A DNA stretch of 64,000 nt from Candidatus Nitrosocosmicus arcticus (GTDB taxonomy: Archaea; Thermoproteota; Nitrososphaeria; Nitrososphaerales; Nitrososphaeraceae): NCBI RefSeq assembly GCF_007826885.1, contig NZ_ML675590.1, positions 1 through 64,000 on the forward strand, given 5' to 3'. A program made the translations under genes and the position numbers. How positions within the stretch are numbered: position 1 is the stretch's first letter; every line of letters starts with the position of its first letter. Of the stretch, positions 230 through 19,216 are shown one piece after another. The notes beneath the pieces are model-generated. The model was not told where the DNA came from. It saw only the letters and a list, made by a program, of their open reading frames with translations, and did not search any database.

Positions 230-511
230 TTATTGTTGGCCTAATGCCAAATTGCCTAACTGGTCTTGTAATTGCAAGTTCACGTTATTTCCACATATTA
301 AAGAAAAGTCTCCAGATACACATTGTGCATTTTGTTCACTTGCTTGACCTTGTTCAATTTCTTGCTCTGCATCGTTGTGTTTCTTGTTTTTTCCGCCTGC
401 ATATGCCAAATTATCACCAAGGGCCACGACTGAACCAATCAAGGCTGCTGCAATAAACATTGCAAATATTCCGACTTTATAGTTTTTTGTTATGTTACTC
501 ATTATAATCAT
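230..511 (-). CDS. Small secreted Q/N-rich protein, one-repeat member of a local family
   Basis: The product is 93 residues. Residues 13-38 form a signal peptide (hydrophobic run, then LAYAGG), followed by a short basic linker and a single C-terminal unit of about 45 residues. The unit pattern is EIEQGQASEQNAQC...C.NN...Q.Q...GN.ALGQQ, with two cysteines ten residues apart and many Gln/Asn. The same unit ends the proteins at 2531-2893 and 3411-3677 and is repeated several times in the protein at 18179-19216. Function is unknown; the spacing of Q, N and G resembles beta-strand repeats of surface fibres, which is inference. The exported location is well supported. The gene stands alone with a T-rich upstream region. 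Confidence 0.72.
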   Translation of the reverse strand: MIIMSNITKNYKVGIFAMFIAAALIGSVVALGDNLAYAGGKNKKHNDAEQEIEQGQASEQNAQCVSGDFSLICGNNVNLQLQDQLGNLALGQQ

Positions 512-668
512 AATGTCTAGTTGAAATTAATTATATTATAGTTTAGATACTTATTACTAGTTTTTTTTATTAGAATTTAATGAAGGTATTAAGTTACTAT
601 ATTAGTTTGTATTAGTTATTATTAACCTGGTTACTTTGTTTCAACTTTTTTGTTAGTTTCTTTCATTA

Positions 669-1148
669 TTACTTAAATCTGTACCTTTTGTTGTATTCCA
701 ATATCCTTTGTCTTGTTTCTGGTTGAGAAAAGACTTCGTCCAATCTCCTTGGCTTTTTGTCCTCGAAAACAATATCAGAATACCATTTGGACCCAAATGC
801 CGTTAACATAAGTAAAATGGGTAGAATATCTTCTCCCTTTTCGGTTAAACTCCATAATATCATTACTTGATCTTTTCTCACCTCCTTACACCTTATGATC
901 CCTTCCTTTTCTAACTCCTTTAAGCGCATGGATAATACTCTTGGTGTAAGGCCTGGAATCGATTCTAGTATTCTATTAAATCTCTTGATCTTTAGAAAAC
1001 CAATATCTCTTATTATTAGCATAGTCCACTTCTTGCCCAATACCCCTAAGCTTGTTTTGATGGGGCAGTTGACTATTTTGACTTGAGGTCTAATTATACA
1101 ATCCTCTTTCTCATATCCTTTTTCCTCGTATTCGTTTGGGTATCTCAA
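669..1148 (-). CDS. HxlR-family winged-helix transcriptional regulator
   Basis: This 159-residue protein has the HxlR layout: a conserved Cys near the front (C28 in NCPIKTSLGVLGKKWTMLII), then a winged helix over about residues 28-105 with the recognition region GLTPRVLSMRLKELEKEG. Family members are DNA-binding repressors or activators that often sense reactive aldehydes or redox state through that Cys. The N-terminal 25 residues are longer than usual and charged. Translation appears to start at TTG; no in-frame ATG lies nearby. No neighbouring gene is clearly its target. Family assignment is firm; the regulon is unknown. Confidence 0.85.
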   Translation of the reverse strand: MRYPNEYEEKGYEKEDCIIRPQVKIVNCPIKTSLGVLGKKWTMLIIRDIGFLKIKRFNRILESIPGLTPRVLSMRLKELEKEGIIRCKEVRKDQVMILWSLTEKGEDILPILLMLTAFGSKWYSDIVFEDKKPRRLDEVFSQPETRQRILEYNKRYRFK

Positions 1149-1541
1149 CTATACTTTCACTCCACTATCAGATCTTATGGTATATTTTGTATATCTTAAA
1201 GTATTTGAATATTGGACTACTACGAATGGTTGAATTTTGAATCATTGAACGGTGGACAATGTCATTTTATGTAATTATATTAAATGCGAAGCGATATTTA
1301 TAGAAGTATTGTTTATGATCTTCATAGTATAAAATCATACACCCCTCAAAAATTGCCTTCCTGTCTTGTAAATTTCATTGACATTTAAAAATCAAGATAG
1401 GTTGAATTGGATTGTCCACTCATACCATACGTGATTCGGCATTATTTTTATGACATGCGGGTAGAAAAACTCATCACGTTGTAAGCGATTCTGGCTCCAT
1501 TTTGTAGACGGTTATATACTAGTGATGTTATATATATTTAT
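1149..1541. other. Intergenic region without a gene
   Basis: No supported coding frame lies here. The last 40 bases are A/T-only and include TATATACTAG and TTATATATATTTAT just before the start at 1542, so the promoter of that gene probably lies at the right end. The left end must hold the promoter of the divergent HxlR gene. Confidence 0.5.
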
Positions 1542-1814
1542 ATGAAATATAGAAGCCGTACCGAAATTGTAGCAATGGTTCTTGAGGCAGCCAATGGTGG
1601 CGCTACTAAAACTAAAATCATGTACAAAGCTTTTTTAAGCTACGCACAACTTAAAGAATATCTCTCTGTTCTTATAGAAAATGACTTGATCGAATATATA
1701 GAAGGATCGGTATACAAAACCACCCAAAAAGGATTGGTTTTCTTAAAGATGAATAGTGAGATCGAAGAATTACTTGCGACACCAACCAGAAATTATAAAA
1801 CCATAATTAATTAG
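1542..1814 (+). CDS. ArnR1-like winged-helix DNA-binding protein
   Basis: The 90-residue product is a single winged helix of the ArnR1/HTH_45 type common in archaea. Its opening (YRSRTEIVAMVLEAANGGAT) and the following TKIMYKAFLSYAQLKEYL helix-turn-helix, wing (GSVYKTTQKG) and tail helix all match the family. Such small proteins act as local transcription regulators. There is no sensor domain, so the ligand and target genes cannot be read from the sequence. The start ATG sits directly after a TATATATTTAT stretch, suggesting a short or leaderless transcript. Confidence 0.82.
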   Translation: MKYRSRTEIVAMVLEAANGGATKTKIMYKAFLSYAQLKEYLSVLIENDLIEYIEGSVYKTTQKGLVFLKMNSEIEELLATPTRNYKTIIN

Positions 1815-2071
1815 AAAAAAAATTTTTTATCAACTTTTTCAAAGTTGTTTAACAGTTGTAGTCAAACCTATTGCTTTTTTATGGTTTTTATTATAAATAG
1901 TCCTTTTAAGAATAAATTTTTGATTTAATCTCTAATCTCTGAAAATCAAGTTTTAAGCAGCATTAAAAGCTTCATTGATCGATTTCGTGTTTACAATTAA
2001 CCTAATAACAGTCTAATTGAAAGATTCCATCGTTAGGCCAATAAAAATTTTTTTTGGTTTGTAAAAGTTTA

Positions 2072-2392
2072 TCATTTGATTTTTTTTATGGTGATGTCAT
2101 TTACATCGTTCTTAATTCTGTCCATACGTCTACTAAGCATCTTAAAAGAATCTAGCGTATCCATTTCGATCATCCCTGGTAAATGTGTGATCTCTGACAC
2201 ATAATTGTTCATAACAAAAAAATCATTGATCCTGGTTTCTATGATTATATTATCTCCTTTCAGGTCTTCTGATGATGATCTATTTATCACTTTAACAAGT
2301 TTTGACCTTTGTTTTTCAGTTTCTTGTGTTAAAGGATATTTTCCCGAACGAAATGAATCTTCAATCATTTCACATAATTCTGATATCTTCAA
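2072..2392 (-). CDS. Hypothetical small soluble protein
   Basis: This frame of 106 residues has no signal peptide or membrane segment and is mostly helical and charged (KISELCEMIEDSFRSGKYPL at the start, a basic C-terminus KNDVNDITIKKIK). I do not recognise a family. The reading starts at TTG; an internal ATG at MIEDSF is an alternative. It stands alone between an ArnR1-like gene and a secreted-protein gene. It is plausible as a real gene because of its length and even codon use, but function is unknown. Confidence 0.55.
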   Translation of the reverse strand: MKISELCEMIEDSFRSGKYPLTQETEKQRSKLVKVINRSSSEDLKGDNIIIETRINDFFVMNNYVSEITHLPGMIEMDTLDSFKMLSRRMDRIKNDVNDITIKKIK

Positions 2393-2530
2393 CCATATTC
2401 TAATAATTATTACTATATTTTAACATGTTTGATAGTAAAAAAAGTCCTGGATGTGATGTTTGATTATGGTGTCTAACCTGTCTAACCGGCCGACTATGGT
2501 GCCAAGCCTAAACAAAAAAAAGAATGGGAT

Positions 2531-2893
2531 TTACTGTTGTGCTAATGCGTTATTTCCTGAATTTTCTTGATTTTGGAAGCTAAAGTTATTTCCTGAATTT
2601 TCTGTATCGCCACCAGAAACTACTTGGCTGTTTTGACTTGAGGATTGGCTTTGACCAATACCTTGTGATGCTCTATTTCCATCATTGTCATCATCATCAT
2701 CATCGTCATGATTCTTGAAATATTTCTTGCACCAGTTATTACTATGATCGTCTCTACAATCCTCCCAATCGTTGTATTTTTGTTTCGCAAGTACATCGCC
2801 AATGCTCGATATCTGAGGACCCATTATCATGACTGTTGCTAATGCTACTACAATTAATACTGTAGTAGTTTTTGTATTATTTGACCTAATCAT
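2531..2893 (-). CDS. Small secreted Q/N-rich protein with Asp-rich linker
   Basis: The 120-residue protein has a signal peptide (about residues 10-36), a Cys/Trp/charged middle section (WEDCRDDHSNNWCKKYFKNH) followed by a seven-Asp run, and a C-terminal Q/N-rich unit (ASQGIGQSQSSSQNSQVVSG...NSGNNALAQQ). The unit belongs to the same family as the 18179-19216 repeat protein, but its two Cys positions are Val and Ser-like here, so it is a Cys-less variant. The Asp run could bind divalent cations. The role is unknown; export is well supported. Confidence 0.7.
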   Translation of the reverse strand: MIRSNNTKTTTVLIVVALATVMIMGPQISSIGDVLAKQKYNDWEDCRDDHSNNWCKKYFKNHDDDDDDDNDGNRASQGIGQSQSSSQNSQVVSGGDTENSGNNFSFQNQENSGNNALAQQ

Positions 2894-3410
2894 TTTAGTA
2901 TTAAATTCTATAACTAAAATATATGATATAATAATTTTCTAAGATCTTTAGCATATTTAGTTCTATCCGATAAATTTAGAATAATTTTATAGAACGTTTA
3001 TTTATAACCATTCTGGGAACTTGGGCTTTATCATTCTAAATGAATGATATTGGACCATTAAGCACTCACAGATCCAACTCTATCTGCAGTAGCATACTAC
3101 TTCCGGTCATTTTCGGTAAGTTGAGAGGAGAGTTTGCATTTTTTATCTTTAATTTATTTTTCAAAACGATTGTTCCATTTGTTCATCTATTGATTAAATA
3201 AATGGTATATTGGATATAGCCCTAGGCAAAGATTTGTTATTATTACATTTCTTCCATGTAGGTGGTTTCATCTTACAATGCTATTTAATCATGTAGCATT
3301 ATAAATTGAATCAATTGGAGTCAAATGCAATAAAAGTGGCATTTAAAATGGAGTTTGGAAATTATACAAGAGAAAAATATACATATCGTATATTAAAAAA
3401 AATAAGTCTA
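2894..3410. other. Intergenic region without a gene
   Basis: About 500 A/T-rich bases with no supported coding frame between two minus-strand secreted-protein genes. The part next to 2893 should carry the promoter of the gene to its left. I see no repeat or RNA gene. Confidence 0.45.
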
Positions 3411-3677
3411 TTACTGACCTAAGGAGTTCTGGCCTTCGTTTAGGTTAAATGATAAATCAACGTTATTACCCGAAGCAGTACTGGTTCCATTTTCTGAAAA
3501 TACATCACTAGATTGTTCGGACAATTGACCATGGAAGAGATCTTGTGATGCGCTGTCTAATTTCTTATTTGCATAGACATTTAGTTCATCCATACTCATT
3601 GTTACCGGGCCTGCAACAAATAATGATACAATAGCAATTACTGCAATAATTATTGGTGTTTTAGTTATAGTAGACAT
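3411..3677 (-). CDS. Small secreted Q/N-rich protein, divergent family member
   Basis: This 88-residue protein starts with a signal peptide (about residues 8-36, ending near NVYA) and continues with one degenerate unit of the family seen at 230-511, 2531-2893 and 18179-19216: ASQDLFHGQLSEQSSDVFSE, then SGNNVDL and EGQNSLGQ at the end. It has no cysteine in the mature part. The unit keeps the spaced Gln and the Gly-Asn ending, which is why I group it with the others. Function is unknown. Confidence 0.65.
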   Translation of the reverse strand: MSTITKTPIIIAVIAIVSLFVAGPVTMSMDELNVYANKKLDSASQDLFHGQLSEQSSDVFSENGTSTASGNNVDLSFNLNEGQNSLGQ

Positions 3678-4282
3678 TTAGACCATTATTACAGCGATGA
3701 ACTTTAGATATTTGACTTTTCAATCTAAAAACTGTAAAATTTTTGTGTACTTGTAAACTGAAAACTTTATATTTGAATGCTAATTCTAACTTGTTGTTAT
3801 GATACTTTGACTGCGAACGTTATTTGTTAATCCAATATAAAATGATGTCACCTAGACATATATTCTTTTCAATCAGAATTTCTGGATTAATCCGCTCTAT
3901 TATGTTGTTCAATACGAAAATATTAGAAATCGACCATTTCTAAAATAAATACTAATCAGCAATATTCAAACTAAATATTCTAAAGTATTGAGACGTTTCC
4001 TTTCTTGATCCCATTCATGTTCTATCAAGAAAGTGATTCCATATATTTAATGATATCACCAAACAAGCACAGTGCGAATTTTTCCTTTAGTCAAATTCAT
4101 TGGATAATAATTATACTACGGTTTTAATAAATCAAATATAAAGTCAAATTATAGTATGGACCTAGTTATTTCTTTTATTTGTTCATCTTTTAATTGCCTG
4201 TCACTTTTTTAAGTATCTTAGTTTTATTGATTAAAGAATTATATTAGAAAATCATCTATTTGGTTGTTACCTTTTTTGATAT
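3678..4282. other. Intergenic region without a gene
   Basis: About 600 A/T-rich bases. No coding frame, RNA gene or clear repeat was found. The end near 3678 should contain the promoter of the adjoining minus-strand gene. Confidence 0.45.
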
Positions 4283-4669
4283 TCACAAACCCAATATAAC
4301 AAAGCCCATTATTATTGTGATTATGAATTGGGGTAAAGTTGGTGTTACTATTTTAAAGTTATTATATGAACTCGGTAAATGAGGTGTTACAAAGGTAGAA
4401 ACCATTACAGATGACGCAATTATGACCCCTCCTGCAATTAGAATAAACGTTATGATTCTTGATTTTATGCCTATTCCAGTTATGAAGGAAATGATGAAAA
4501 GTGCGATAGATGTTCCTCCCAACAGTGTACCCCTGTCTTTAGAAGAAAGTGGCAAAAATCCAGACTTATCATTGATGACGACTGCTATAACATCAGCTAT
4601 ATAGATTAGCAAAATAATGATGGCGATGGTCCCCAGAATTTCAGAAATTTTTTTCCTGGTACTTTGCAT
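4283..4669 (-). CDS. Hypothetical four-helix membrane protein
   Basis: The 128-residue product contains four hydrophobic segments at about residues 12-33, 48-66, 70-93 and 108-128, joined by short loops; the second loop carries SSKDRGTLLGG. There are no conserved catalytic or ligand-binding motifs that I recognise. It is an integral membrane protein of unknown function. The last helix runs to the stop codon with no tail. It stands alone on the minus strand. Confidence 0.6.
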   Translation of the reverse strand: MQSTRKKISEILGTIAIIILLIYIADVIAVVINDKSGFLPLSSKDRGTLLGGTSIALFIISFITGIGIKSRIITFILIAGGVIIASSVMVSTFVTPHLPSSYNNFKIVTPTLPQFIITIIMGFVILGL

Positions 4670-5155
4670 AATATATAATACTATCGAACTATATTAATCA
4701 ATATTATGTTCTTGCGAAAGAATATATGTACATGATTGCCTTTTTTATTTTGGTATCTTATACATTCTAGTTTTATTAGGGATTAATGTTATCATCTATC
4801 CACATTATTCTGTGATTAAACAACCCAAAAACAATGATCTCTATTATAGGGATACAATATAACTGAACTTAAATCAATATCATGTTGTCCTGATATCAAT
4901 CAAAATCTATATCTATATTCGTATGGATCAAGGCAAGGAGGATAGAGTGATAATTGATACACTTGCACTGTCAACAACGAGACCTTGAATGGACCGTTTC
5001 AAAGAAATACTGAAAATAGGATAAAAGGATAAAAAAATTATTCTTGTCACGCTTTGCTAAATGCTATCATTGCACAATAGTAGTTTAATTTATTAGAAAA
5101 ATCAAACAAAATGAAAAACTCTTGACTCAAATAGAGGCCAAAAGTTGTATCTTAT
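4670..5155. other. Intergenic region without a gene
   Basis: Nearly 490 bases with no supported gene. I saw no RNA gene or inverted repeat of note. Confidence 0.4.
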
Positions 5156-5746
5156 TTATCGGCTATTTCTGTTATCTCTTTCAAAAGACTCGTAAACTCT
5201 TGCGTTTCTCTTTCCTATTTCTGCAAATTGCTTTGATTGTTCTTTTGTGTTGTTGATTACGCTTTTTACTATGTCAACATTTGAAAATGCGATATTGTTC
5301 ATGATTCGACTTAAGGCTACTGTATTTTCTGCATAATTATTGGCTATTTTTGAATATATTTCTGGAATTCTTCTAAATATACCTTGGTTGTTCCACAACT
5401 GGTTATTTGCATTTTCAAAATATGGTGTGACAATAGATTGAAAAGAATCAATGGTTTGTTTTTGATAGTCCAGGTAGTTTTCTGCTATATCTCTTGTAGC
5501 TTGTACTGCTTGTTCTTGAACCTCATTTATCGTCTTTGTGTACAATGGGATCTGATTTCTTGCTTCGTTGATGTTTCTTTCAATGCTTTTTTTGGACTCA
5601 TCGAATACCTGGTTTAGAGATTGTGTAGTCTCTTTAACAGCTCGATTGAATATTTCGGTATTGTTTTGAACTACTTGATCTAAATTATCTCTTGTAGTTG
5701 AATCGGTTGTAGAAGTGGTTGTTTCTTTTTTATCTTGTTTCGACAT
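5156..5746 (-). CDS. Phasin-like coiled-coil protein
   Basis: The 196-residue protein has a short Thr/Ser-rich head and then an almost continuous amphipathic helix from about residue 20 to 185, with no signal peptide or membrane segment. The pattern (NNTEIFNRAVKETTQSLNQV, later QKQTIDSFQSIVTPYFENAN) resembles phasins and PhaE-type partners that coat polyhydroxyalkanoate granules. Some thaumarchaea are known to carry PHA synthase genes, which makes this attractive, but no synthase is in the window. It could instead be a general apolipoprotein-like or stress coiled-coil protein. Assignment by pattern only. Confidence 0.55.
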   Translation of the reverse strand: MSKQDKKETTTSTTDSTTRDNLDQVVQNNTEIFNRAVKETTQSLNQVFDESKKSIERNINEARNQIPLYTKTINEVQEQAVQATRDIAENYLDYQKQTIDSFQSIVTPYFENANNQLWNNQGIFRRIPEIYSKIANNYAENTVALSRIMNNIAFSNVDIVKSVINNTKEQSKQFAEIGKRNARVYESFERDNRNSR

Positions 5747-6185
5747 TACTCATAGTTACCAATCGTTTTATATAAATATTGGTAGGAAATGGTTGTTATT
5801 ACCATGAGATTCATATACAAAAGATTAATGAACCATTGTTTATATTAAATAACCTTTGGAAGATAGGGCTATTAACTATCCTGGTTATTCACAGAATTAT
5901 AAATACTATCAAACTAATCTGGGATGGGGCTATACTATCTTGAGCTTAGTATACTAGAAATACTTCCTTACTGTGCTGCCACCCCCTTTTTTGACATAGT
6001 TTTTGATGATCTTTAGATATTAACACAATATGATTAGGCAAAGCTCGACAATTTCTTTTTTTGCGGGAAAATGGAAGATGTTTCCAATCAAAGTTTAGAT
6101 TGGTATTTTACACACAAAACTTAAAACATATAATATAGTAACATTCATTGAATAAGTTTTTTATCTTTTGACTGTATTATAGAAT
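5747..6185. other. Divergent intergenic region
   Basis: The gap lies between the minus-strand phasin-like gene and the plus-strand gene at 6186, so it must carry both promoters. No coding frame or RNA gene was found. Confidence 0.4.
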
Positions 6186-6407
6186 GTGTTTCAAGATAAT
6201 ATGACCTGCAAGACCCATTTTAGGCAAGTACCGGGGTTGGGACTCACTGCCGTGGTACCTAAAGAGTGGTTGAATAAAAAGGTCAAATTTGAATATGGAG
6301 AAAGGGAGTTTGAAACTTATGTTATGTATCGTGGAAAACGATCAATTATCCGTTTGGAACAAAAAACTCTTAGCGGAGGGCCTGTTACGATTAAATTGTT
6401 GGACTAG
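6186..6407 (+). CDS. Hypothetical small beta-rich protein
   Basis: The frame gives 73 residues from a GTG; an ATG at 6201 gives 68. The sequence (FRQVPGLGLTAVVPKEWLNK, then EYGEREFETYVMYRGKRSII) looks like a compact beta protein, with no signal peptide and no cysteine pair. I do not recognise a family. Its neat composition and position ahead of the LpxD-like gene support a real gene, but nothing shows its role. Confidence 0.55.
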   Translation: MFQDNMTCKTHFRQVPGLGLTAVVPKEWLNKKVKFEYGEREFETYVMYRGKRSIIRLEQKTLSGGPVTIKLLD

Positions 6408-6684
6408 AAGTCAACGTAATTTTGAATATTATTACAAATCCATTATGGGTTAAAAAAATAGCCATCCGTGGACTTGTTGTTCAAATTTTTAAGGAATTTT
6501 CTTGAAATCGTGTATGTATTTAAGTAGGTTTCTGAACTCTATTTTGCATTCACAAGATAACAATTACCTACCGTTGAATGGAATCATATAGATCCCCAAA
6601 ATTATCATATCCGATTTTATAATATCATTTCTCTAATAGAATAATATAGAAAACAATTATATTAAAAAGAAAAATATACTCGTT

Positions 6685-7677
6685 ATGGTTCAATGGACCG
6701 TTGAATCACTATTGCAGCACATAACTGATTCACATTATACGATTGAAGGACAAAAATCTAACTCAAAATCAAAATCAATAAGAAATGTGTCATCATTACT
6801 TACTGGGACACGGGATGATGTTTCATTTTGTTCATCCGAGGAATACGGAGGCATGCTCTCTATATCACAATCAAAAGCTGGTGTAATACTTTGTAAAAAA
6901 AGTATGGAAGGACTGGTATATCCAAATCACAAGGAAGGACAACTATTGATATTTGTTGATAATCCTAGACTTGAATTTACAAGACTTGCAAAGCGAATTA
7001 CCATTAATCCACCTATGGTTGGTATATCTAAAAGTTCTGTTATAGCAGATTCAGCTAAGATCGGGAGAGAATGCTATATTGGCGACTACGTAGTTATAGG
7101 TGATGATTGTACAGTCGGCAATAATACTATAATAGAATCAAAAACAAATTTGCAAAATTGTAAAGTAGGTGATAATTGCACCATTCAACCAAACACCACT
7201 ATAGGTTCTGATGGATTTGCATTTGAAAGAGCAGGTGATACTTTAGATCTAGAAAAATTTCCTCATTATGGTAAGGTAGTGATAGAAAACGACGTAGAGA
7301 TATTTGCAAATTGTTCTATCGCACGAGGATCGCTCTCTGACACGATCATAGGACAGGGCACCAAAATTGATGCTTTATGTCATATAGCCCATAATGTTGA
7401 CATTGGAAAAAATACTGAACTAACAGCTGGAACAATAGTAGGTGGTAGTACTTTTATTGGCGACAATTGTTGGTTAGGGCTAAACAGTACAATAAAAAAC
7501 AAGATAAAAATAGGCAATAAAGTTATTGTGGGTTCAGGCAGTTCTGTAATCTATGACATAATAGATGAAGATATTGTTGCAGGCGTACCAGCAAAATCTA
7601 TAAAAAAGAAGGTAACTGCTAATAAAGAGAAACTCTTTTTGATGGCTGGACAACTAAAATCTGACTTTATGCCATAA
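6685..7677 (+). CDS. LpxD-like UDP-amino-sugar N-acyltransferase, left-handed beta-helix
   Basis: The 330-residue protein follows LpxD architecture. An N-terminal nucleotide-binding-like domain (about 1-110, with VSFCSSEEYGGML and FVDNPRLEFTRLAK) is followed by hexapeptide repeats forming a left-handed beta helix (about 115-300) and a C-terminal helix ending LFLMAGQL. The catalytic His context IAHNVDIG is present, as is GFAFE before it. In bacteria LpxD transfers an acyl chain to the 2-amino group of a UDP-linked glucosamine for lipid A. Archaea have no lipid A, so here it more likely acylates an amino sugar for a surface glycan; that is inference. A paralog lies at 36932-37876. Confidence 0.8.
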   Translation: MVQWTVESLLQHITDSHYTIEGQKSNSKSKSIRNVSSLLTGTRDDVSFCSSEEYGGMLSISQSKAGVILCKKSMEGLVYPNHKEGQLLIFVDNPRLEFTRLAKRITINPPMVGISKSSVIADSAKIGRECYIGDYVVIGDDCTVGNNTIIESKTNLQNCKVGDNCTIQPNTTIGSDGFAFERAGDTLDLEKFPHYGKVVIENDVEIFANCSIARGSLSDTIIGQGTKIDALCHIAHNVDIGKNTELTAGTIVGGSTFIGDNCWLGLNSTIKNKIKIGNKVIVGSGSSVIYDIIDEDIVAGVPAKSIKKKVTANKEKLFLMAGQLKSDFMP

Positions 7678-7729
7678 AAACACATTTAATTTTATTGATT
7701 TTGTATTTGCTCATACAGGTATGTCCAAT

Positions 7730-8199
7730 TCATTCATAGGTCTCCTCACGTCTTTTTCCTACTTTTGGAATTCGAGGTACTATTAGGGCAAAAGCTATTG
7801 AAACTGTGGCTATAAAGTAAAAGTTAAATCCTATCGCCATTCCGATTGCACCGGAAAACCATATACTTGCTGCTGTCGTTAAATTGACTACTTTCTGATT
7901 TGAGGTACTGTCTGAATCTTTGCGGTCAAATAATTCCCCTTTTAGTATTATTCCAGCCCCTAGGAATCCTATTCCAGTCACGATCTGGGCAGCGATCCTC
8001 GATGTGGAATAGGGGTCAACTAGTGCGGAAATATATGTAAATATCATAGAACCCCCTACCACAAAACAATGGGTTCCAATCCCTGCTGCTTTACCTCTTG
8101 ATTCTCTCTCTCTGCTCCAATCAGAAAACCGGCCACTAGTGACAACCCCATACCTAACGCAAAATCAAGCTCGTTTACGCTAAATAGCCCTGGAACCAT
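7730..8199 (-). pseudogene. MgtC/SapB family membrane protein, frameshifted in a GA repeat
   Basis: The intact downstream frame (110 residues from 8062) encodes the MgtC hydrophobic core with GIGFLGAGIILKG and three or four membrane helices. Upstream, the missing N-terminus is in another frame: from ATG at 8199 it reads ELDFALGMGLSLVAGFLIGA and ERE. Joining the two (ERE to SRGKAAGIGTHCFVVGGSM) needs removal of two bases from the dinucleotide tract at 8103-8113. Without the shift the protein would be about 155 residues, normal for the short family type. MgtC-like proteins affect Mg and membrane energetics. It may be a pseudogene, a slippage-controlled gene or a sequencing error. Confidence 0.75.
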
Positions 8200-8728
8200 T
8201 GAACCTGATAACGTAATACAACATTGTATTTAACTTCATTATTCCATCATCATAAAATAGAATATTTTTGATTCTGGTGTGAACTGATAATTTCATATAT
8301 AGTCTTTTGATTTCAAACAGAATGCAATCGGGATTGATTAGAAACGTTGTGATTTCTAGTAATGTAATGGTAATGCCATTACTATTTGATTATTCTATGA
8401 AAAACACTTTTCTACATCTAGAGTATCTAATAAGGCTCCACAGAAACAAGTAATCAGGCTTTGATATACCTCACTACGACAATAGCTTGACCAATTCATG
8501 TACCTGTAGAGGATCAAGTCGATATCTTAATTTTAGGCCCAGTCCAATATTTTACTATGAACCGCAAACAAATAGGAACTTCATCCATCTCGTAGTACTG
8601 TTTGATCCGGATTTCGTATTATTTCATAATTGCATTTATTTTCCGTTTGACGGGTGTTTAAAGGCCTATGCTATTAGGTCTTTCATATAATGGAACAAAC
8701 CTTGTATCAGTATTGTAGTATTTAGTAA
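8200..8728. other. Intergenic region without a convincing gene
   Basis: About 530 bases between a minus-strand and a plus-strand gene. A 67-codon frame at 8487-8690 has a composition unlike a protein. The region presumably contains two divergent promoters. Confidence 0.4.
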
Positions 8729-10385: not shown

Positions 10386-10970
10386 CTACGGTTCTCCTGG
10401 CGAGGCCCCTTGATCCACGTTAATTGTATTAATAATTTCGCAGCTTTGTAGGTTACCGTTGAATATCATTCCTTTTGCTGCCTGAAAGGTGTCTACTTGG
10501 TTAAATTGAGATGAGCAATCACCATTAGAATCTGTTAGAATGGTTACAATCGCCGATTCTCCTAACTGATTTTCAATATCCATAGTATCAAATGGAGTTT
10601 CTGAAATGGTATAATTTCCAGGATCTAGAGAAATATTTGTTCCATTAGCCGATCCTTGAAAACTAGTTATATTTGGGTTATTTCCTGTTACTACCAAATT
10701 AGACTGATTTGCATCAACATTTTCGAGGACAAACTGACAGACAGAATCATCACTTGGAATACCTAATGAGGAATCACAACGAACAATTTTAGTTACTGTA
10801 ACAGTAGCCTGTTGTTCTTGAGTCGTGTTTGCTACTACTGGTTGCCCCTTAGTGTCAGACGTTGAGTTATTTTGACCATATATATCCCAACTGACCTGAG
10901 GATAACCTCCTATTGAAACCGTATTCAAAATGAAAAAGATTGCAGTTGATATACCTAATAATTTAATCAA
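10386..10970 (-). CDS. Secreted protein with prealbumin-like/collagen-binding B-type repeat
   Basis: The 194-residue protein starts with a signal peptide (about 1-25) and a Ser/Thr/Gln linker. One beta domain then begins at TVTKIVRCDSSLGIPSDDSV. The pattern VTK..RC, SLDPGNYTISETP and NGNLQSCEIINTI matches the prealbumin-like folds of archaeal surface proteins in which a Gly-rich loop precedes TISE. Four cysteines probably form two disulfides. It most likely works outside the cell as an adhesion or matrix module. No neighbours form an operon with it. Confidence 0.6.
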   Translation of the reverse strand: MIKLLGISTAIFFILNTVSIGGYPQVSWDIYGQNNSTSDTKGQPVVANTTQEQQATVTVTKIVRCDSSLGIPSDDSVCQFVLENVDANQSNLVVTGNNPNITSFQGSANGTNISLDPGNYTISETPFDTMDIENQLGESAIVTILTDSNGDCSSQFNQVDTFQAAKGMIFNGNLQSCEIINTINVDQGASPGEP

Positions 10971-11374
10971 TTACTTAGTATGCATGAAGGGGATTAATTA
11001 ATATTTAAAAAAAATATTGTCAGCATTCTTCTGCCCAGCACCAGCATTTTTCAATAATTCCACTAAGGTAAGAATTGAGATGTGATATGAACAAGGTGTC
11101 AGTGATTCCTTAAACTTTCAAAATTAAAGATTGGTAATCATGTTGGAGTTAATGGTAAATTTCTACTATTATTTGAAATCTCTATCTAGATTTTGATATA
11201 TGGTTATACAATGGACTGATAAACAACGAATTTTAATGGATATAATGCTCTGTTAGACACGTTTCAACGAACGATCTGATTATTTGCTATATTGTTAATT
11301 TAATATCTAATTTGTTTTACCAATTGTAACATTTTTCTGACTGTCTGTATTTAAATATCAATACATCAAGCTAA
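10971..11374. other. Divergent intergenic region
   Basis: About 400 A/T-rich bases between genes transcribed apart, so both promoters should lie here. No coding frame or RNA gene was seen. Confidence 0.4.
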
Positions 11375-11737
11375 ATGAAGATGCAAGAATTAAAATTTTC
11401 TATCATTATATTTTGTGCCCTTGGGATATTGGGCTTATTGATTGGGTCTCCAGATATATCTACTATAATCGCCACCTCTTTACCATCACCATCACCATCA
11501 CCATCACCACAACAAGATTCTGCTGGAATATCTGACAGTATCGAAGATTCCGCACTCGTAAACCTTTCACAAGCATTACAAGAAGACAAAGAAGATGGTG
11601 ATCAAAATGGTGGAGAAAATTGGGATAAGGCTATAGATAACTTAGAAGAGGAACTGGGATTTCCAGTCGATGATGATGTCGAAGAAGCATTGATGAATAT
11701 AACGGAGGTTCATTTGAATAACATGTCAAACCAATGA
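11375..11737 (+). CDS. Small secreted acidic protein with Ser-Pro repeat
   Basis: The 120-residue product has an N-terminal hydrophobic segment (about 7-28) followed by a perfect (Ser-Pro)5 tract from the repeated codons ATCACC. An acidic tail follows, rich in Asp/Glu (EDKEDGDQNGGENWDKAIDN) and ending with N-glycosylation-like NIT and NMS sites. The Ser-Pro stretch should act as a stiff spacer and the acidic part may bind cations. I do not recognise a family. Export is likely; function is unknown. Confidence 0.6.
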   Translation: MKMQELKFSIIIFCALGILGLLIGSPDISTIIATSLPSPSPSPSPQQDSAGISDSIEDSALVNLSQALQEDKEDGDQNGGENWDKAIDNLEEELGFPVDDDVEEALMNITEVHLNNMSNQ

Positions 11738-12146
11738 GGCTTTATTTATAATTCTATCACATGACAGTAAAAGTTGATTGTTAGCCGTACTATTTGGTCG
11801 CCAAGAGGGCTAGCATATATTTAATCGAATCATGAATATTTTTCATATCGATCAATAGAATCATCTAGAACTATGGAGTAACTCTACCATATTGGCCCGT
11901 CCTTATTAGAGATCCAGTTGTTACTAGACTATTATTGTTTGAAAATATTTTTATGCAATTGTAATTATATCTCTCAGGCAAATGCTCTTTCCTATGGGTA
12001 TGAAATTGATTTACTAACTTTACTACAACTACGAAATAAAATAATAAAAATATTCTCTGCTCTAAAAAGTATGTGATATGCTAGGCAGCCGACCAAATGA
12101 GTGCATTCCTTTTTATGTCTACATTTTGAGTACTAGTAATTCTAAA
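11738..12146. other. Intergenic region without a gene
   Basis: About 400 A/T-rich bases with no supported coding frame, RNA gene or repeat. Confidence 0.4.
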
Positions 12147-12284
12147 TTATTTTGCTGGTCTTCTCATTGAAAACATTGTTTTAATTCCTTCAGATAACAA
12201 ACAGGCTAAGAATACGACCATCGCGGTGTCATTGCCCGTATTATTGTAGACATGCAAAACTCCAATCGTCGTGGCTTGATACAT
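12147..12284 (-). CDS. Possible 45-residue membrane microprotein
   Basis: On the minus strand an ATG at 12284 opens a 45-codon frame ending in TAA at 12147. It reads MYQATTIGVLHVYNNTGND, a hydrophobic stretch AMVVFLACLLSEG, and a basic end (MRRPAK). Its composition is more protein-like than the surrounding sequence. It overlaps the first 33 bases of the plus-strand gene at 12252, so at most one of the two starts is correct as drawn. Weak evidence. Confidence 0.3.
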   Translation of the reverse strand: MYQATTIGVLHVYNNTGNDTAMVVFLACLLSEGIKTMFSMRRPAK

Positions 12285-12749
12285 TACTTTATCATTTTAA
12301 AATTATGTGATGACCGTCCTGAAGAATTGTATACAGCAAATGTCATATCCAAAAGACCTATAGTCATTCTAATGATTTCTAGAGAGTTGAATATACTATT
12401 AAAGAACTATAAAACTCACTGCATTTTACATAGAGGTTTAAATTTTTTTCTATTCAAAATTAATCTTAATACTTTAATATTTCAAATTCCTTGCATAACA
12501 AGGAATATAATTCCTTTATTGGAAAATATAGCCAATTTCAAAAATCTTTTCGAAAGAGTTATATATGTAAATTGCGTATTATTGGCAATGTCAAACAATA
12601 TCAACATATTGGATAATATAAAAAAATATGTCATTTTAGCGGATCAACCTTCAGTTGGCATAGTAAGAGGGTTGCCTTCAGTGACCTTGGAGATTTTATT
12701 AAAGAAATTCTCAAAATTATTGTTTTTTTTGGGGGTAGGCAATAAATGA
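12252..12749 (+). CDS. Hypothetical protein translationally coupled to the cyclase gene
   Basis: The 165-residue frame is rich in Ile, Leu and Asn and has no signal peptide or clear family motif; a central segment (LNFFLFKINLNTLIFQI) could be beta strands. Its stop overlaps the start of the cyclase-receiver gene in an ATGA, which argues for coupled translation and a shared role. It may be a sensory partner of the following signalling proteins, but nothing in its sequence proves that. The start may lie further in than 12252, since a minus-strand frame overlaps there. Confidence 0.5.
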   Translation: MQNSNRRGLIHYFIILKLCDDRPEELYTANVISKRPIVILMISRELNILLKNYKTHCILHRGLNFFLFKINLNTLIFQIPCITRNIIPLLENIANFKNLFERVIYVNCVLLAMSNNINILDNIKKYVILADQPSVGIVRGLPSVTLEILLKKFSKLLFFLGVGNK

Positions 12750-13900
12750 ACTGTATTGGTTTTGACTCACCAATTTACTATCGAAGTATGAATCAACCAG
12801 AGGAAAACGTTTTAGATAATTCTAATAATTCTAACTCTAATATCGAACAGGTTACTTTTATTAATTGTGCTCACAAGTACTGTGTATGTTTTATTGATAT
12901 TGTTGATTCTACCAAAAATACTTGTGACATCAATGGCGCTATCAAGATACGAGGTTATTATTCTATTTTTCTGAATACAATGTCGTCGATAATTAAGAGG
13001 CATAATGGGAGAGTGATTAAGAACGCTGGCGATGGTTTGTTGTACTATTTTCCTAAAACTGTGGACTCTAAGAATGAGTTGGCATTTCAGGATGTCCTAG
13101 ATTGCGGTTTAGCGATGATCGAGGCAAACAAGTCCATTAACCAAAACTTTAACCAAAAAGGATTGTCGTCGGTATGTTATAGGATCAGTGCCAATTATGG
13201 GAAAGTTGAATTAGCGATATCCGTAAATTCTTACAACGTAGATCTTTTTGGACCAACTGTCAATATATGTTCCAAAATAAATCATTTAGCATCTTCAAAT
13301 GAAATGGTTGTTAACGGTGATTTGTATGAAGTCTTAAAAGGTACCTCATTTTACCAAGAATACTCTTTCAGAGCTTTAGATAAGAACTGTAATGAAGATG
13401 GACCATCTAACTATGTCGCATATTCAGTTCATCCAATAGATGATGCAAGCAGGAGAAAAGAGATCGAAGATAAAAGGAAAAGAAAATTTTTTGAAAATCA
13501 ACAAAATCACAAAAATTTAACCAATTCGTCATTTAATATCTTATTGATTGACGATGACGAAGATATCCTTTTTGCATTCAATTCAATAATTTCAAGTGAA
13601 GGCTATAACGTTACCTCTTTCTCAAGTTCATCAAATGCATTAATTCATTTTTCAGATAAGAATCCCTATTTTTATCATCTAGTGATAATGGACATACGCA
13701 TGCCTGAGTTAAATGGTATCAAGCTATATTCTCAGCTTAAAGTTTTGAATCCTGATGTAAAAGTCCTTTTCCTATCTGCACTAAATGCACTAGATGAGGT
13801 GCTTAGTATATTTCCAGAAATCAAGCATAGTGAAATTATTCGCAAGCCTATTGAATCCAATGCTCTCCTTACTATTATAAAATCTATATTGTGTCGGTGA
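12746..13900 (+). CDS. Class III nucleotidyl cyclase fused to a response-regulator receiver domain
   Basis: The 384-residue protein has a class III cyclase homology domain (about 42-225) and a receiver domain (about 262-384). In the cyclase, both metal-binding Asp are present: D51 in CFIDIVDST and D96 in KNAGDGLLYY. The VN.....R motif reads VNICSKIN, with Lys at the usual transition-state Arg. The receiver has the acidic pair IDDDED, phospho-acceptor D316 (VIMDIRMPELNG) and K367 (IRKP). It probably makes cAMP or a related signal under control of phosphorylation, perhaps by the histidine kinase encoded at 14100. The order cyclase then receiver is opposite to the common receiver-first layout. 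It is soluble. Confidence 0.85.
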   Translation: MNCIGFDSPIYYRSMNQPEENVLDNSNNSNSNIEQVTFINCAHKYCVCFIDIVDSTKNTCDINGAIKIRGYYSIFLNTMSSIIKRHNGRVIKNAGDGLLYYFPKTVDSKNELAFQDVLDCGLAMIEANKSINQNFNQKGLSSVCYRISANYGKVELAISVNSYNVDLFGPTVNICSKINHLASSNEMVVNGDLYEVLKGTSFYQEYSFRALDKNCNEDGPSNYVAYSVHPIDDASRRKEIEDKRKRKFFENQQNHKNLTNSSFNILLIDDDEDILFAFNSIISSEGYNVTSFSSSSNALIHFSDKNPYFYHLVIMDIRMPELNGIKLYSQLKVLNPDVKVLFLSALNALDEVLSIFPEIKHSEIIRKPIESNALLTIIKSILCR

Positions 13901-14099
13901 CTAATGAATGGAGCTTTTATAATACAAATGCTGAGGATTAGGTTGAATGCATATGGTTTGCTGAATCCATTTTCCTTACCGAGATCAACCATTATCGAGC
14001 AAATTTCATTGACTGACTTTAATCGAGCTCCACTATCTACATTAGGACCAAATCAATTATTACAAATAGTTGAGACAACTAGCGTAGCCGGGGTTTCTC

Positions 14100-15806
14100 T
14101 TGATTAATCAATATTCAAATGACTATATCCAAAAGTCTTTGACGGTCTTAGATTTATTGTCTAATAGGATATTTATAAAATATACTCTTATCCCTGCCAT
14201 CCCCCTTTTCTTATTTGCTATTATTGCAGTCGATCCTTATCTGTGGACCAGTTCGGAAATTCATCACTTTTACATAGAGTTGTTTGCTGTAGTATTTTCT
14301 GGAGTTATAGCGTTTTACTATATCTTACACGCTCGAAACTTAAATGATAAGTTTAGTTTATTCATTGGAATCGGTTTTTCTGTAAGCGCTTCAATCGATT
14401 TGTTACATGTGGCGGTATCATTTAGTTTAATGGAAAAGGTCGATTTCCTAAAATACTTTATTCCCCAAACATGGTTTGCAGGTAGAATTTTTCTTAGCAG
14501 TATGCTATTAGTTGCAATAGCGAAATATTCTTCCCTGGTTCCAGAAGAATTGGTATTATCCAAAATAGATCAATCTGATAATAAAGAGAACCGAATTACA
14601 AGAAAATTACCTCCTTTAAATATCGATCAAAAAAAATTAGATGAAAAGCCTCAAAAAAACCTTATAATTTATCTTATTTTTCTAGGAATCGTTGCAGGAA
14701 GTATCGCAATAGTCTCTTTTTTTTTGGTCTTTCCGGCAAGTGTTTTAGATGATTATTCTTTACATAGGCCATACGAAATTCCTCCTTTAATTTTATTTAC
14801 AATAGCCTTAATTTTCTTTTATAAGAAACGACTTTACTTAAAAAAAGATGTAATTTACAAGGGGATACTTATTTATTTATTGGTAGATATTTTTTCACAA
14901 ATTATTATGTCTTACTCTACCCGATCATTTGACACAGCTCATAATGTAGCACACCTACTTAAGGACGTAGGATATTTCGTCAACATAATCGCCCTGGCAT
15001 TATCTGGAATAAGATATACAATTAATCTCAAGGAGAGGAGTGAGTTAATACAAAATCAATACGAAAAGATCAAAGAATCAGAAAAACTAAAGGATGAATT
15101 TATTAATATCGCCGCTCATGAATTAAGAACACCAATTCAACCAATACTTGCACTTTCGATTTTCTTGGCTAATAAAAAGGGGATGATAGAAGAGTACAAG
15201 GATCATATTGAAATAATCATAAAAAATTCAAAAAGACTTCAGAAACTTTCTGAAGAAATTCTGGATGCGGCAAGAATTGAAAGCCGTTCGTTAGATCTGA
15301 ATTTGGAAAGATTTGATTTGATAGGTTTGATGAGTAACATGTTAGGTGATTATTCCAATCAAACTGATAGAAATAATATCGTCATAAAATTCGTGAATGA
15401 GGGTAAAGATATCGATTGGAATATACAATTAGCGAAACAAGAAAGGGTAAATCTATTTGTCTATGCCGATAAAGACCGAATAGTTCAAGTGTTATCAAAT
15501 ATCTTGATTAACTCAATAAAGTTTACAAAAAAAGGGAGTATTACTATAGATGTTAAAAGGGCTTACAATCGAGTCTTCGTTAAAATTAGGGACTCTGGTC
15601 CAGGAATCGATAAGGAGATACTTCCTAGATTATTTGATAAATTCATAACAGGTTCTCCATCAGGGACTGGCCTTGGACTCTATATTTGCAAAAACATAAT
15701 TGAAGCTCATGGTGGAAATATATGGGCCAAAAACAATGATGAGAATAAGGGAGCAACATTCACGTTTACTTTACCAATTGATTCCCAAACATTGGTGCAA
15801 TTCTAA
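14100..15806 (+). CDS. Membrane sensor histidine kinase with MASE3-like N-terminus
   Basis: The 568-residue protein begins with several membrane helices (about 20-320) of the MASE3 type, including the motif GFSVSASIDLLHVAVSF. A cytoplasmic kinase follows: H-box with H340 (FINIAAHELRTPIQ), N-box (VLSNILINSIKFT, near 465), G1 (RDSGPGID), F-box (PRLFDKF) and G2 (GTGLGLYICKN, near 522). All catalytic boxes are intact. The signal sensed by MASE3 domains is unknown. The cyclase-receiver gene just upstream on the same strand is the likely partner. Translation is read from TTG at 14100; the gap to the previous gene is about 200 bases. Confidence 0.88.
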   Translation: MINQYSNDYIQKSLTVLDLLSNRIFIKYTLIPAIPLFLFAIIAVDPYLWTSSEIHHFYIELFAVVFSGVIAFYYILHARNLNDKFSLFIGIGFSVSASIDLLHVAVSFSLMEKVDFLKYFIPQTWFAGRIFLSSMLLVAIAKYSSLVPEELVLSKIDQSDNKENRITRKLPPLNIDQKKLDEKPQKNLIIYLIFLGIVAGSIAIVSFFLVFPASVLDDYSLHRPYEIPPLILFTIALIFFYKKRLYLKKDVIYKGILIYLLVDIFSQIIMSYSTRSFDTAHNVAHLLKDVGYFVNIIALALSGIRYTINLKERSELIQNQYEKIKESEKLKDEFINIAAHELRTPIQPILALSIFLANKKGMIEEYKDHIEIIIKNSKRLQKLSEEILDAARIESRSLDLNLERFDLIGLMSNMLGDYSNQTDRNNIVIKFVNEGKDIDWNIQLAKQERVNLFVYADKDRIVQVLSNILINSIKFTKKGSITIDVKRAYNRVFVKIRDSGPGIDKEILPRLFDKFITGSPSGTGLGLYICKNIIEAHGGNIWAKNNDENKGATFTFTLPIDSQTLVQF

Positions 15807-15960
15807 AATGGTTAATTATTCAATTTCGAATAATTTTCGATTTCAATAAAAGTTTCAGATGAATAAACATGCTGATGGATGATGGTTATATATGTCATTT
15901 AGCTTAGTATATTTACATCGTTATCTGTACCGGAAATCAGTAATCTATGAATAAATAAAA

Positions 15961-16143
15961 TTATTGAATTGATTTCCAATAAACCGTATTTAAATTCCCG
16001 CACATTTTACACTCAATACTCGTCGGAATTGTCTCTCTGTCAGGATACTTTGTAGATTTCTTGTGATCCGAGTCTGGGGGTGTAGCATTGTACGATTCTC
16101 CACATTTTGGACATGCAAACACTGCCATGGTATTGAATATCAT
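15961..16143 (-). CDS. Small zinc-ribbon protein
   Basis: The 60-residue protein has two Cys pairs, CPKC near residue 11 and CKMC near residue 46, about 32 residues apart, the layout of a zinc ribbon. An ATG at 16128 (MAVFACPKCG) is an equally good or better start than 16143. Such miniature ribbons bind nucleic acid or protein partners; no specific role can be assigned. It stands alone downstream of the histidine kinase on the opposite strand. Confidence 0.65.
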   Translation of the reverse strand: MIFNTMAVFACPKCGESYNATPPDSDHKKSTKYPDRETIPTSIECKMCGNLNTVYWKSIQ

Positions 16144-16562
16144 CTAATCATATGTAAACGTTAAGTCGGGATGTTTTTTCATTGAATTTACCATTACAGC
16201 TTGATCAACAATAATTGATTTTTTCTCCGGTAGATAATGTATCTTTATTAGATTTATTAAATAAGGAATACCAGATAGGAAAGGACCGCTTAACTAGTTT
16301 AGTTTAGGTATCTGGTTAGATTAGGGTAAGCAAATTCATGAGGATTTTTATTACCAAATCAAAAAGGGAAGATACCTTTCTAGGACGAAGGTTTTGAATT
16401 TATGGAGTGGAGGTTCCAATACACTTGATTTTTTCTATTAACTTGTTATTGTTTTCGAAAAAGGACTATATCCATAATATAATCACAGATGATGTGATGT
16501 GATCTTGATCTCTATCTAATAGACAAATCTTTAAGCTACGAAAACCACTAATCGAGAGGATT
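16144..16562. other. Intergenic region and lost 5' end of a pseudogene
   Basis: No intact gene. The right end probably contains the decayed start of the SnoaL-like pseudogene; in-frame codons can be followed back to about 16515 without an ATG. The rest shows nothing recognisable. Confidence 0.4.
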
Positions 16563-17059
16563 GATGAGCCCGATAAACTAGGCAAAATATTTGATAAACA
16601 TATAGAATATGAATTTGAAAAAGAGGATGTAGATGCGACTATGACTACAATGACTGGTGAACCATAAGTTCATCATGTCCCGACATTGACAGGTGGCTTT
16701 GGGTATGGCGAAGTATATAGCTTTTACAAAAATAACTTTGTTGGAAAAATGCCTAAGGACATTAAAATAAAACCTATATCACGTACGGTAGGAAAAGATC
16801 AGGTACTGGATGAAATCATAATTAGTTTTACTCATGATAGAGAGATTGAATATATGTTGCCTGGGGTGGAACCTACCGGCAAATATGTGGAGATACCTCA
16901 TGTAGTTATTATGAAATTTGACGGATCCAAAATTGCTCATGAACACATTTACTGGGATCAAGCTTCAGTTTTAGTTCAAACAGGACTAATCGAGGAAAAA
17001 ATATATCTGTTACGGGGATTCAACAAGCAAGACGACTACTGGAATTATCCAAAAATTAG
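16563..17059 (+). pseudogene. SnoaL-like/NTF2-fold protein, broken by a stop and a frameshift
   Basis: The frame before 16686 reads DEPDKLGKIFDKHIEYEFEK then a TAA where a Tyr or similar codon is expected (GEP, stop, VHHVPTLTGG), and continues as an NTF2-fold protein with GEVYSFYKNNFVGKMP and KFDGSKIAHEHIYWDQASVL. Near the end, a run of six A at about 17001-17006 puts the expected tail out of frame: the shifted frame reads SVTGIQQARRLLELSKN and stops at 17059. Adding one A restores it. Two separate lesions make a true pseudogene likely. Intact relatives are polyketide-cyclase-like proteins of unknown substrate. Confidence 0.72.
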
Positions 17060-17268
17060 TTTCTTTTGTAATCGCCTATTTTGCCTGATTCCTTAGTTCT
17101 TGGAAACTTTAGTATTGGATCGTGATCTTGACTCTTAATCATCAAACATTGTGATCCATTTTAGTGTTCTGAAATAAAGACTGGTTTTAATTGAAAATTG
17201 GAATTCTCATTAATAATTTTAGCAACCTTAATTATACTAAAAAAAGATTGTTCAGGATCGACGAGCTA

Positions 17269-17652
17269 TTAGTTACCTTCATTTGATAAGTCCCATATCA
17301 AATTAGTAGAATTATTTGATATTTGAATCAATTCATTGTATATCTGGCCGAGTAAATTCTCTGCTTCTGTATTATTGTTATTGCTAATCGCGGACCGGGT
17401 TTCATTGACCAAGAATTTGACAGTTTCTATTGAATCGTCTAACTGGAAAAAAGTATCACTTGCCTCACTTGTAGTATTTCCAATGTTAATTCCTGTAATT
17501 GGTTGAGCGGTCACTTCACTATAATTACTACCCAGAAAAAAAATTGCTCCAAATGCTGCCACTATTATAAATACAAAGGGCGTTTTTGAATTCATGGCGT
17601 TTTTCATGTGATTTTGAATATCTTGACCATGAGATCTTCTAAATTTTTTCAT
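17269..17652 (-). CDS. Hypothetical membrane-anchored or secreted protein
   Basis: The 127-residue product has a basic N-terminus, a hydrophobic segment at about 24-44 (FVFIIVAAFGAIFFLGSN) and an Asn/Ser-rich helical ectodomain with several N-glycosylation-like sites. The ectodomain pattern (LDDSIETVKFLVNETRSAIS, then NLLGQIYNELIQISNNSTNL) repeats as two helices, like small helical-hairpin exported proteins. I do not recognise a family. Confidence 0.6.
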   Translation of the reverse strand: MKKFRRSHGQDIQNHMKNAMNSKTPFVFIIVAAFGAIFFLGSNYSEVTAQPITGINIGNTTSEASDTFFQLDDSIETVKFLVNETRSAISNNNNTEAENLLGQIYNELIQISNNSTNLIWDLSNEGN

Positions 17653-18178
17653 AATTTTCTCATTACGTCATGGTTAATAACTAATTATTAACTTTAAACA
17701 CATATGTATACTGTGACGGAGTAGAGATTCTATGCTTTGCCGGAATTTCAAATTTTTTTATTTTAAGATACTTTTGCCTACTGGAATATTCACTATTTGA
17801 CCAAGTTATATTAAGCCTTATAATTGAATTTGGATTATTTCTGAGTAACGGTGCCTTTTTAATGCGATGCTCTTCATGGGTCAAATGTATGTATCTTTAC
17901 CACTAAAAATATTGTTTTTGCGGTAACCTTCAAATGATATAAAAAAACATTGGGAATACAAGAAATAGTCAATCCCTTCTGACAACGGTAATAGTTTCAT
18001 CCAATATTTCCAATAGAAAACAATAACGATTACTAAATCAGGGAAATACCACAGTCAATGTGTTCATATGTTAGCTAACATAATATTAGAAAAATTTTAT
18101 CTATAATTGTCATTGATCATTATTGCGGTTAATTTGAATAAAGTTTAAATATTGAAAAATAATATAAAAAACACTATA
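17653..18178. other. Divergent intergenic region
   Basis: Long A/T-rich gap before the secreted repeat protein. A 67-codon minus-strand frame at 17681-17884 starts at TTG and looks unconvincing. The promoter of the repeat-protein gene should be in the last 60 bases, where TTTAAATATTG lies ahead of the ATG at 18179. Confidence 0.4.
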
Positions 18179-19216
18179 ATGAAACACTTACTAACTATTT
18201 TACCTATACTCATAATGTTAACATTGGCCCCAGCTTTAATGACTGGAAATGGCAACATATTTGCGCAAAGTTCCTCAGAGCAAGCAATCGAACAAGCTCA
18301 AAGTAGTTCACAAGAAGCTCTATGTGCATCTGGTGTAAATACCGCCTTATCATGTAATAATATAAATTTACAAAGTCAAAATAACACAGGCAATAATGCC
18401 TTAGCTCAACAAGGTGGAAATGGAAAAGGTAGCGGTAACTCTGCAGCTCAAGGAATCGGACAGTCACAATCCTCTAACCAAAACGCACAATGTGTAGCAG
18501 GTGGAGACGTAAACAACTCTTGTAACAACACGAGTGTCCAAGACCAAACCAATACCGGAAACAACGCAGCAGCCCAAAGTGGCGGTAACGGAAAAGGTAG
18601 CGGTAACTCTGCAGCTCAAGGAATCGGACAATCACAATCCTCTAACCAAAACGCACAATGTGTTTCTGGTGAAGATGCAATTGTATCATGTGACAATGAA
18701 AGCTTCCAAAACCAAGTCAACAGCGGAAACAATGCCTTAGCTCAACAAGGTGGAAATGGAAAAGGTAGCGGTAACTCTGCAGCTCAAGGAATCGGACAGT
18801 CACAATCCTCTAACCAAAACTCACAATGTGTAGCAGGTGGTAGTCTAGGTGACTCTTGTAACAACACGAGTGTCCAAGACCAAACCAATACCGGAAACAA
18901 CGCAGCAGCCCAACAAGGTGGCAACAACAACGGCAATGGTGACAAATCCAAAACAGCTTCTCAAAGCACTGAAGACGAAAGTGGAGACGAGGAAAACGGA
19001 AACTCTGCAGATCAGGGTATTACTCAAGCACAATCTCTAGGGAATGAAAAAGAAGACAATGGCAACGATGGTGACAATAATGGCGATACCACCACCAACA
19101 ACAACATTGGCAACGGACAAAGAGCAGCTTCTCAAGGCAGTGAGATCGAGGATGACGACGACGAGGATGACGACGACGAAAACACAGATGATGGTAAAGA
19201 AGGACAAAACAACTGA
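18179..19216 (+). CDS. Secreted Cys-paired Q/N-rich tandem-repeat protein
   Basis: I start the protein at ATG 18179 because it gives a clean signal peptide (MKHLLTILPILIMLTLAPAL, cleaved near IFAQ); an upstream TTG at 18152 adds nine polar residues. The mature part holds four units of about 45-56 residues: AAQGIGQSQSSNQNAQC, then a second Cys 9-11 residues on, NN...Q.Q...GNNA.AQ and a Gly-rich linker GNGKGSGNS. Three units repeat almost exactly at the DNA level. The tail is acidic and Asn/Gly-rich, ending in Asp/Glu runs. Units match the single-unit proteins at 230, 2531 and 3411. The regular Q-x-Q and N spacing suggests stacked beta strands, like curli-type fibres; this is inference. Confidence 0.75.
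   Translation: MKHLLTILPILIMLTLAPALMTGNGNIFAQSSSEQAIEQAQSSSQEALCASGVNTALSCNNINLQSQNNTGNNALAQQGGNGKGSGNSAAQGIGQSQSSNQNAQCVAGGDVNNSCNNTSVQDQTNTGNNAAAQSGGNGKGSGNSAAQGIGQSQSSNQNAQCVSGEDAIVSCDNESFQNQVNSGNNALAQQGGNGKGSGNSAAQGIGQSQSSNQNSQCVAGGSLGDSCNNTSVQDQTNTGNNAAAQQGGNNNGNGDKSKTASQSTEDESGDEENGNSADQGITQAQSLGNEKEDNGNDGDNNGDTTTNNNIGNGQRAASQGSEIEDDDDEDDDDENTDDGKEGQNN
18422..18925 (+). repeat. Three 168-bp tandem repeats
   Basis: Units begin at 18422, 18590 and 18758 with exactly 168 bp spacing (56 codons). The linker and first half of each unit are nearly identical in DNA, while the central region around the second Cys varies. The first and third units also share long identical blocks. In-frame expansion or contraction by recombination is possible. 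Confidence 0.85.

Follow-up and report, generated by a model that had tools for sequence, protein, structure and literature searches.

The four ORFs at positions 230-511 (protein A), 2531-2893 (B), 3411-3677 (C) and 18179-19216 (D) of the window, a 64,000-nucleotide stretch of a Candidatus Nitrosocosmicus genome (2.64 Mb, 22 contigs), encode exported proteins that share a 47-residue unit. They are members of a strongly amplified, genus-specific family whose proteins are exported in Sec-type fashion. On balance we lean towards a new family whose disulfide-stapled β-arch repeats assemble into surface fibres or matrix, in the manner of curli or FapC but as a member of neither.

A check of the window ORFs found all four, and a 47-residue profile built from units outside the window only recovered exactly these proteins among 954 window ORFs, at 38-240 bits. 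The runner-up ORF scored 5.2 bits, and among 2000 composition-preserving shuffles the top score was 9.0 bits. The first-pass annotation had described four exported proteins with a common unit of about 45 residues, present once in three of them and four times in the other. The profile bears out the common unit and the single- and multi-unit forms of one motif, with the length corrected to 47. Protein A (minus strand, 93 residues) has a signal peptide with an AYA-type site and one C-terminal unit (236..376, minus strand, 47 residues, 66.6 bits), in which the second cysteine is shifted by one residue, to column 28 instead of 29. Protein B (minus strand, 120 residues) has an Asp-rich linker and a single unit of the cysteine-free V-G type (2537..2677, minus strand, 47 residues, 72.8 bits). 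Protein C (minus strand, 88 residues), also single-unit, carries the most divergent unit (3414..3557, minus strand, 38.4 bits), again with V-G in place of the cysteines. In protein D (plus strand), which scores 239.9 bits as a whole, a signal peptide is followed by four Cys-paired units, separated by linkers of 9 residues, and by an acidic D/N-rich tail. Its units lie at 18269..18409 (61.6 bits), 18437..18577 (66.5 bits), 18605..18745 (71.9 bits) and 18773..18913 (66.1 bits), all on the plus strand, and there is an additional partial fifth first-half unit, NSADQGITQAQ. The mechanical ORF of D opens with TTG at 18152; a more plausible start is the ATG at 18179, immediately 5' of the signal peptide.

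The unit has the consensus NxAxQxIxQSQSSxQNSQCVSGxxTxxSCNNxxxQxQxNxGNNALAQ, and its anatomy rests on 259 non-redundant units. Columns 19 and 29, the top mutual-information pair of the alignment, hold C/C in 163 of these units, V/G in 89 and I/G in 2; a lone cysteine at either column occurs in only 3. The cysteines, exactly 10 residues from each other, are retained or lost as a pair, so they probably form a disulfide within the unit. A metal site is disfavoured by the joint alternation of C/C with V/G, a verdict that does not extend to the units with His in G405, a divergent Nitrosocosmicus genome. The cysteines had been placed 9-11 residues apart in the first-pass annotation; the pair stands, normally with a spacing of exactly 10, but it is missing from B and C, and the cysteines occur in five of the seven window units, all in A and D. 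Conservation alternates strictly along the unit. Mean entropy in columns 1-21 is 0.51 bits at odd and 2.06 bits at even positions (permutation p=2e-5), and in columns 31-43 it is 0.46 and 2.51 bits (p=0.001). The conserved face is made of Q, N, S, A, G, C and I, with 0.2% charged residues compared to 13.2% on the other face, and the Q, N, G and I columns are near-invariant. Linkers between units are mostly 8-9 residues. If C19 is assumed to pair with C29, the strands would face one another with a column sum of 48, which would place I7 opposite G41 and A3 opposite A45.

AlphaFold2 was applied to the four-unit region of D with an alignment of 63 natural windows from other proteins. It predicts eight strands of 16-20 residues, two per unit (2-21 and 31-48, 58-77 and 87-104, 114-133 and 143-160, 170-189 and 199-214 for units 1 to 4), which coincide with the segments of alternating conservation. 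The best model has a pLDDT of 79 and a pTM of 0.63 and the five models span pLDDT 48-79; the layout of two strands per unit is predicted with moderate confidence. The stacked β structure anticipated from the first reading thus holds for D as a predicted β-rich stacked repeat, and for this tandem protein the outcome was neither a disordered or helical prediction nor a lack of conservation. To a single-unit protein AlphaFold2 assigned no confident fold (pLDDT 51, below 50 in the unit). This result offers no support, yet a lone cross-β rung would not be expected to fold alone.

We propose that each 47-residue unit forms one β-arch rung, in which two facing strands, each some 20 residues long (columns 1-21 and 31-47), would enclose an uncharged interior of Q, N, S, A, I and G contributed by the alternating conserved positions. 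In roughly two thirds of units a disulfide between columns 19 and 29 would staple the turn. With linkers of 8-9 residues between them, tandem units would stack into a two-sheet β-solenoid, and for single-unit proteins the stacking would be intermolecular. Once outside the cell, and with no CsgG-like pore, the proteins would assemble into cross-β-like fibres or matrix that contribute to both the aggregate matrix and the S-layer-free coat of Nitrosocosmicus. CsgG was not found in the source genome by a search whose E. coli control was positive, and an archaeon, which lacks an outer membrane, would not need such a pore. Arch pairing, polymerisation and the coat role are what we infer for the family. 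Its sequences are exported, repetitive, N/Q-patterned and under selection, as is expected of functional amyloids in general.

The likeness to curli CsgA/CsgB lies in the exported repeats, the spaced Q and N, a repeat that comes in major and minor forms, and a two-sheet β-arch stack, which for the unit is a prediction only. In the second strand the curlin spacing N/S-x5-Q-x-G/N-x-G-N-x-A-x3-Q occurs in 62 of 264 units compared to 0.08 expected, a count that comes from a post-hoc test on related sequences. Homology to curlin is rejected: the family did not match PF07012 in Pfam at limits of E 1 and E 10, and hhalign against the K-12 CsgA/CsgB repeats gave 1.4% probability (10.0 versus 9.9 for the best column shuffle). 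The unit's rung also differs from that of curli in being twice as long and Cys-stapled. The curli-like fibre that had been suggested therefore survives as a resemblance of architecture to curli and FapC but not as kinship with curlin, and we regard the fibre idea as a reasonable lead.

The chaplins of Streptomyces, which form a surface amyloid, are short and long exported forms of a Cys-paired unit of ~40 residues. The present family shares the short and long exported forms and the Cys-paired unit but is hydrophilic and Q/N-rich, with the cysteines 10 apart, and it did not match PF03777 in Pfam at limits of E 1 and E 10. Sequence relatives were sought among the chaplins, NCBIfam and the PDB and none were found. 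The unit had been recognised as a member of no familiar family, and with no match in Pfam, NCBIfam or the PDB that impression was correct; no paper describing the family was found in the open-access literature.

A fold search with the model of D placed FapC of Pseudomonas (E 0.066) and CsgA (E 0.16) as the top two PDB entries, neither of them significant, with TM-scores of about 0.11 for both; nothing significant was found in BFVD. FapC, a functional amyloid, has ladders of conserved Asn and Gln (PMC12822426). It differs in being described as a Greek-key arch, and it gave no sequence match in the PDB set. In the archaea, the sheath protein SH of Methanospirillum hungatei forms an extracellular envelope of amyloid-like β-arches, with cysteines proposed to crosslink subunits (PMC10593813). 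Compared by description, SH is a single protein that has a cap domain and whose strands run antiparallel in each sheet (PMC10593813), whereas the unit family has a short repeat in dozens of paralogues, and its disulfide is predicted to lie within the unit.

The first 6 kb of the window is syntenic with the genome of a second species (G354), in which the orthologues of A (L126:5434-5712), B and C have dN/dS values (NG86) of 0.09, 0.19 and 0.18; the orthologue of B has two units compared to one in B. Syntenic orthologues and dN/dS of 0.09-0.19 show A, B and C to be real genes under purifying selection. Syntenic orthologues of D in three other species have 9-10 units compared to four in D. The block around D, kept in four species, contains a histidine kinase and a matrixin-type metalloprotease. 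The latter (19909..20562, minus strand), which is exported and matches Pfam PF00413 at 1.1e-9, is a possible processing enzyme. Since unit number changes between orthologues, the suggested division of the family into nucleator and polymer is weakly supported, and in its strong form, as fixed classes, it is rejected.

The source genome has 82 units over 38 ORFs, contig-end fragments included. A hydrophobic N-terminal core is present in 35 of the 38 and is followed by an AxA-type site in 33; export is well supported by the occurrence of these features nearly throughout the family. The largest ORF has eight units, and in relatives the count per ORF reaches 10. This range of 1 to 10 units with regular linkers, together with counts that differ between orthologues, would also suit β-solenoid units that serve as rods or spacers in separate, non-polymerising surface adhesins or coat proteins, where unit number would set rod length. 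Stacking could be limited by Asp-rich linkers or tails. Two members carry the unit N-terminal of another domain (L055:2134-3186 and L054:1784-2404), so it can act as a module. We nevertheless consider such rods unlikely, as 20 of the 38 ORFs in the source genome are single-unit and too short, the single-unit protein modelled gave no AlphaFold2 fold alone, and a lone cross-β rung would be expected to need partners. Under the polymer model that we prefer, the same fusions suggest that the unit may dock enzymes or adhesins onto the polymer. One of the fused domains is β-helix-like by appearance; the other is a different domain.

N, S, G and Q together make up 60% of the composition, and the proteins could instead form a disordered, hydrated or glycosylated gel, with the β layout an AlphaFold2 artefact of repetitive input. 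The disordered single-unit model, the varying confidence of the tandem models and the published interpretation of the coat as a possible glycocalyx (PMC11559005) are in keeping with this. Strict alternation (p=2e-5 and 0.001) and a covarying Cys pair are, however, signs of folded strands, and the near-invariant Q, N, G and I columns combined with the low dN/dS (0.09-0.19) point to constraint at the level of single residues. N-glycosylation sequons are depleted, at 0.71 per unit compared to 1.68 expected, which also does not favour a heavily N-glycosylated spacer. A disordered gel thus seems improbable, and we retain the folded, polymerising repeat.

Units are found in all 15 of 15 Nitrosocosmicus genomes, at 13-117 per genome, so the profile search called for by the first-pass annotation finds conservation well outside the source genome. 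In a phylum-wide sample searched at E<=0.001, units were present in 4 of 398 genomes, all four of them Nitrosocosmicus and the source genome among them, and absent from the 394 others. Named matches to a single-protein query of the GTDB collection were likewise all Candidatus Nitrosocosmicus. A loose-threshold search of 34 genomes from other genera of the same taxonomic family gave strong matches in one sister-genus MAG (G451) and weak ones in a few. The 11 unit matches in this MAG (L101, L110, L112), whose contamination is about 4%, may reflect transfer or contamination. The weak matches pointed to a remotely related family, with CxTAGxxSxIxxSCNN as its loop, in two other genera (g165, g166; loci L153, L155, L156, L161 and L168); in the phylum-wide sample this family was not detected outside Nitrosocosmicus. 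Its profile aligns with that of the unit at E 8e-8, and intermediate units, which carry His at several positions, are found in genome G405 (loci L154 and L160). From these remote relatives, intermediates and profile alignment, the unit probably arose within the taxonomic family and was then amplified in Nitrosocosmicus. A mobile or viral origin is rejected, as the unit was absent from the phages, plasmids and viral contigs searched. A variable repertoire of surface antigens or recognition proteins, in which the switching or diversification of paralogues would serve cell-cell recognition or escape from grazers or viruses and structure would be secondary, would account for dozens of paralogues per genome, fluid unit numbers, subfamily-specific promoter regions and freely varying exposed even columns, but is very doubtful given syntenic orthologues under purifying selection and a D block kept in four species.

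Members of Nitrosocosmicus, ammonia oxidisers that are common in soil, aggregate and form biofilms fast. They have neither S-layer genes nor a visible S-layer, and cryo-tomography shows a wall of approximately 18 nm with hair-like filaments; the coat has been interpreted as a possible glycocalyx, its composition given by the authors as undetermined (PMC11559005). Cells form aggregates first and attach in that state, and of the AOA tested it was N. franklandianus that made the most biofilm; by SEM its matrix is granular, not thread-like (PMC12448741). It is conceivable, though we would put it forward only tentatively, that this family provides the main structural protein of the S-layer-free envelope, with disulfide-stapled cross-β fibres of tens of paralogous subunits forming the filaments, the thick wall or both. 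Against the fibre reading stand the single-unit model without a fold, the spread of the five tandem models, the non-significant fold matches, the granular biofilm matrix and a link to the coat that consists of a correlation across one genus. If the envelope reading is true, an archaeal cell coat would be built of functional amyloid in place of an S-layer, and the curli-like architecture would have had an independent archaeal origin, with an unusually long disulfide-stapled rung. The family is exported, occurs in all genomes of the genus but hardly elsewhere, and has tens of genes in fully sequenced members. This makes a question about the archaeal envelope testable by proteomics and one purified protein.

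Single-unit paralogues that start with MSNITK (L031, L033, L052 and window positions 511-600) are preceded by a stretch similar to ATCCAAACTATGATATAATTAATTTC, which may serve the subfamily as a shared promoter. One promoter for all family members is rejected, since upstream regions compared by eye are only subfamily-specific. Surface-sugar-like genes are abundant in the window (35216-36250, 36932-37876, 49047-49649, 50919-52289, 53501-54190 and 61147-62235) and, named by sequence appearance, are UDP-GlcNAc epimerase-like, acyltransferase-like, glycosyltransferase-like and PIG-L-like. Three further exported ORFs, at 30072-30443, 46506-47131 and 57914-58830, contain tandem DNA repeats that are 99-100% identical, with units of 66, 177 and 312 bp respectively; those of 57914-58830 are PKD-like repeats in a subtilase-like protein. 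Such near-identical repeats suggest that several surface proteins were recently expanded or homogenised.
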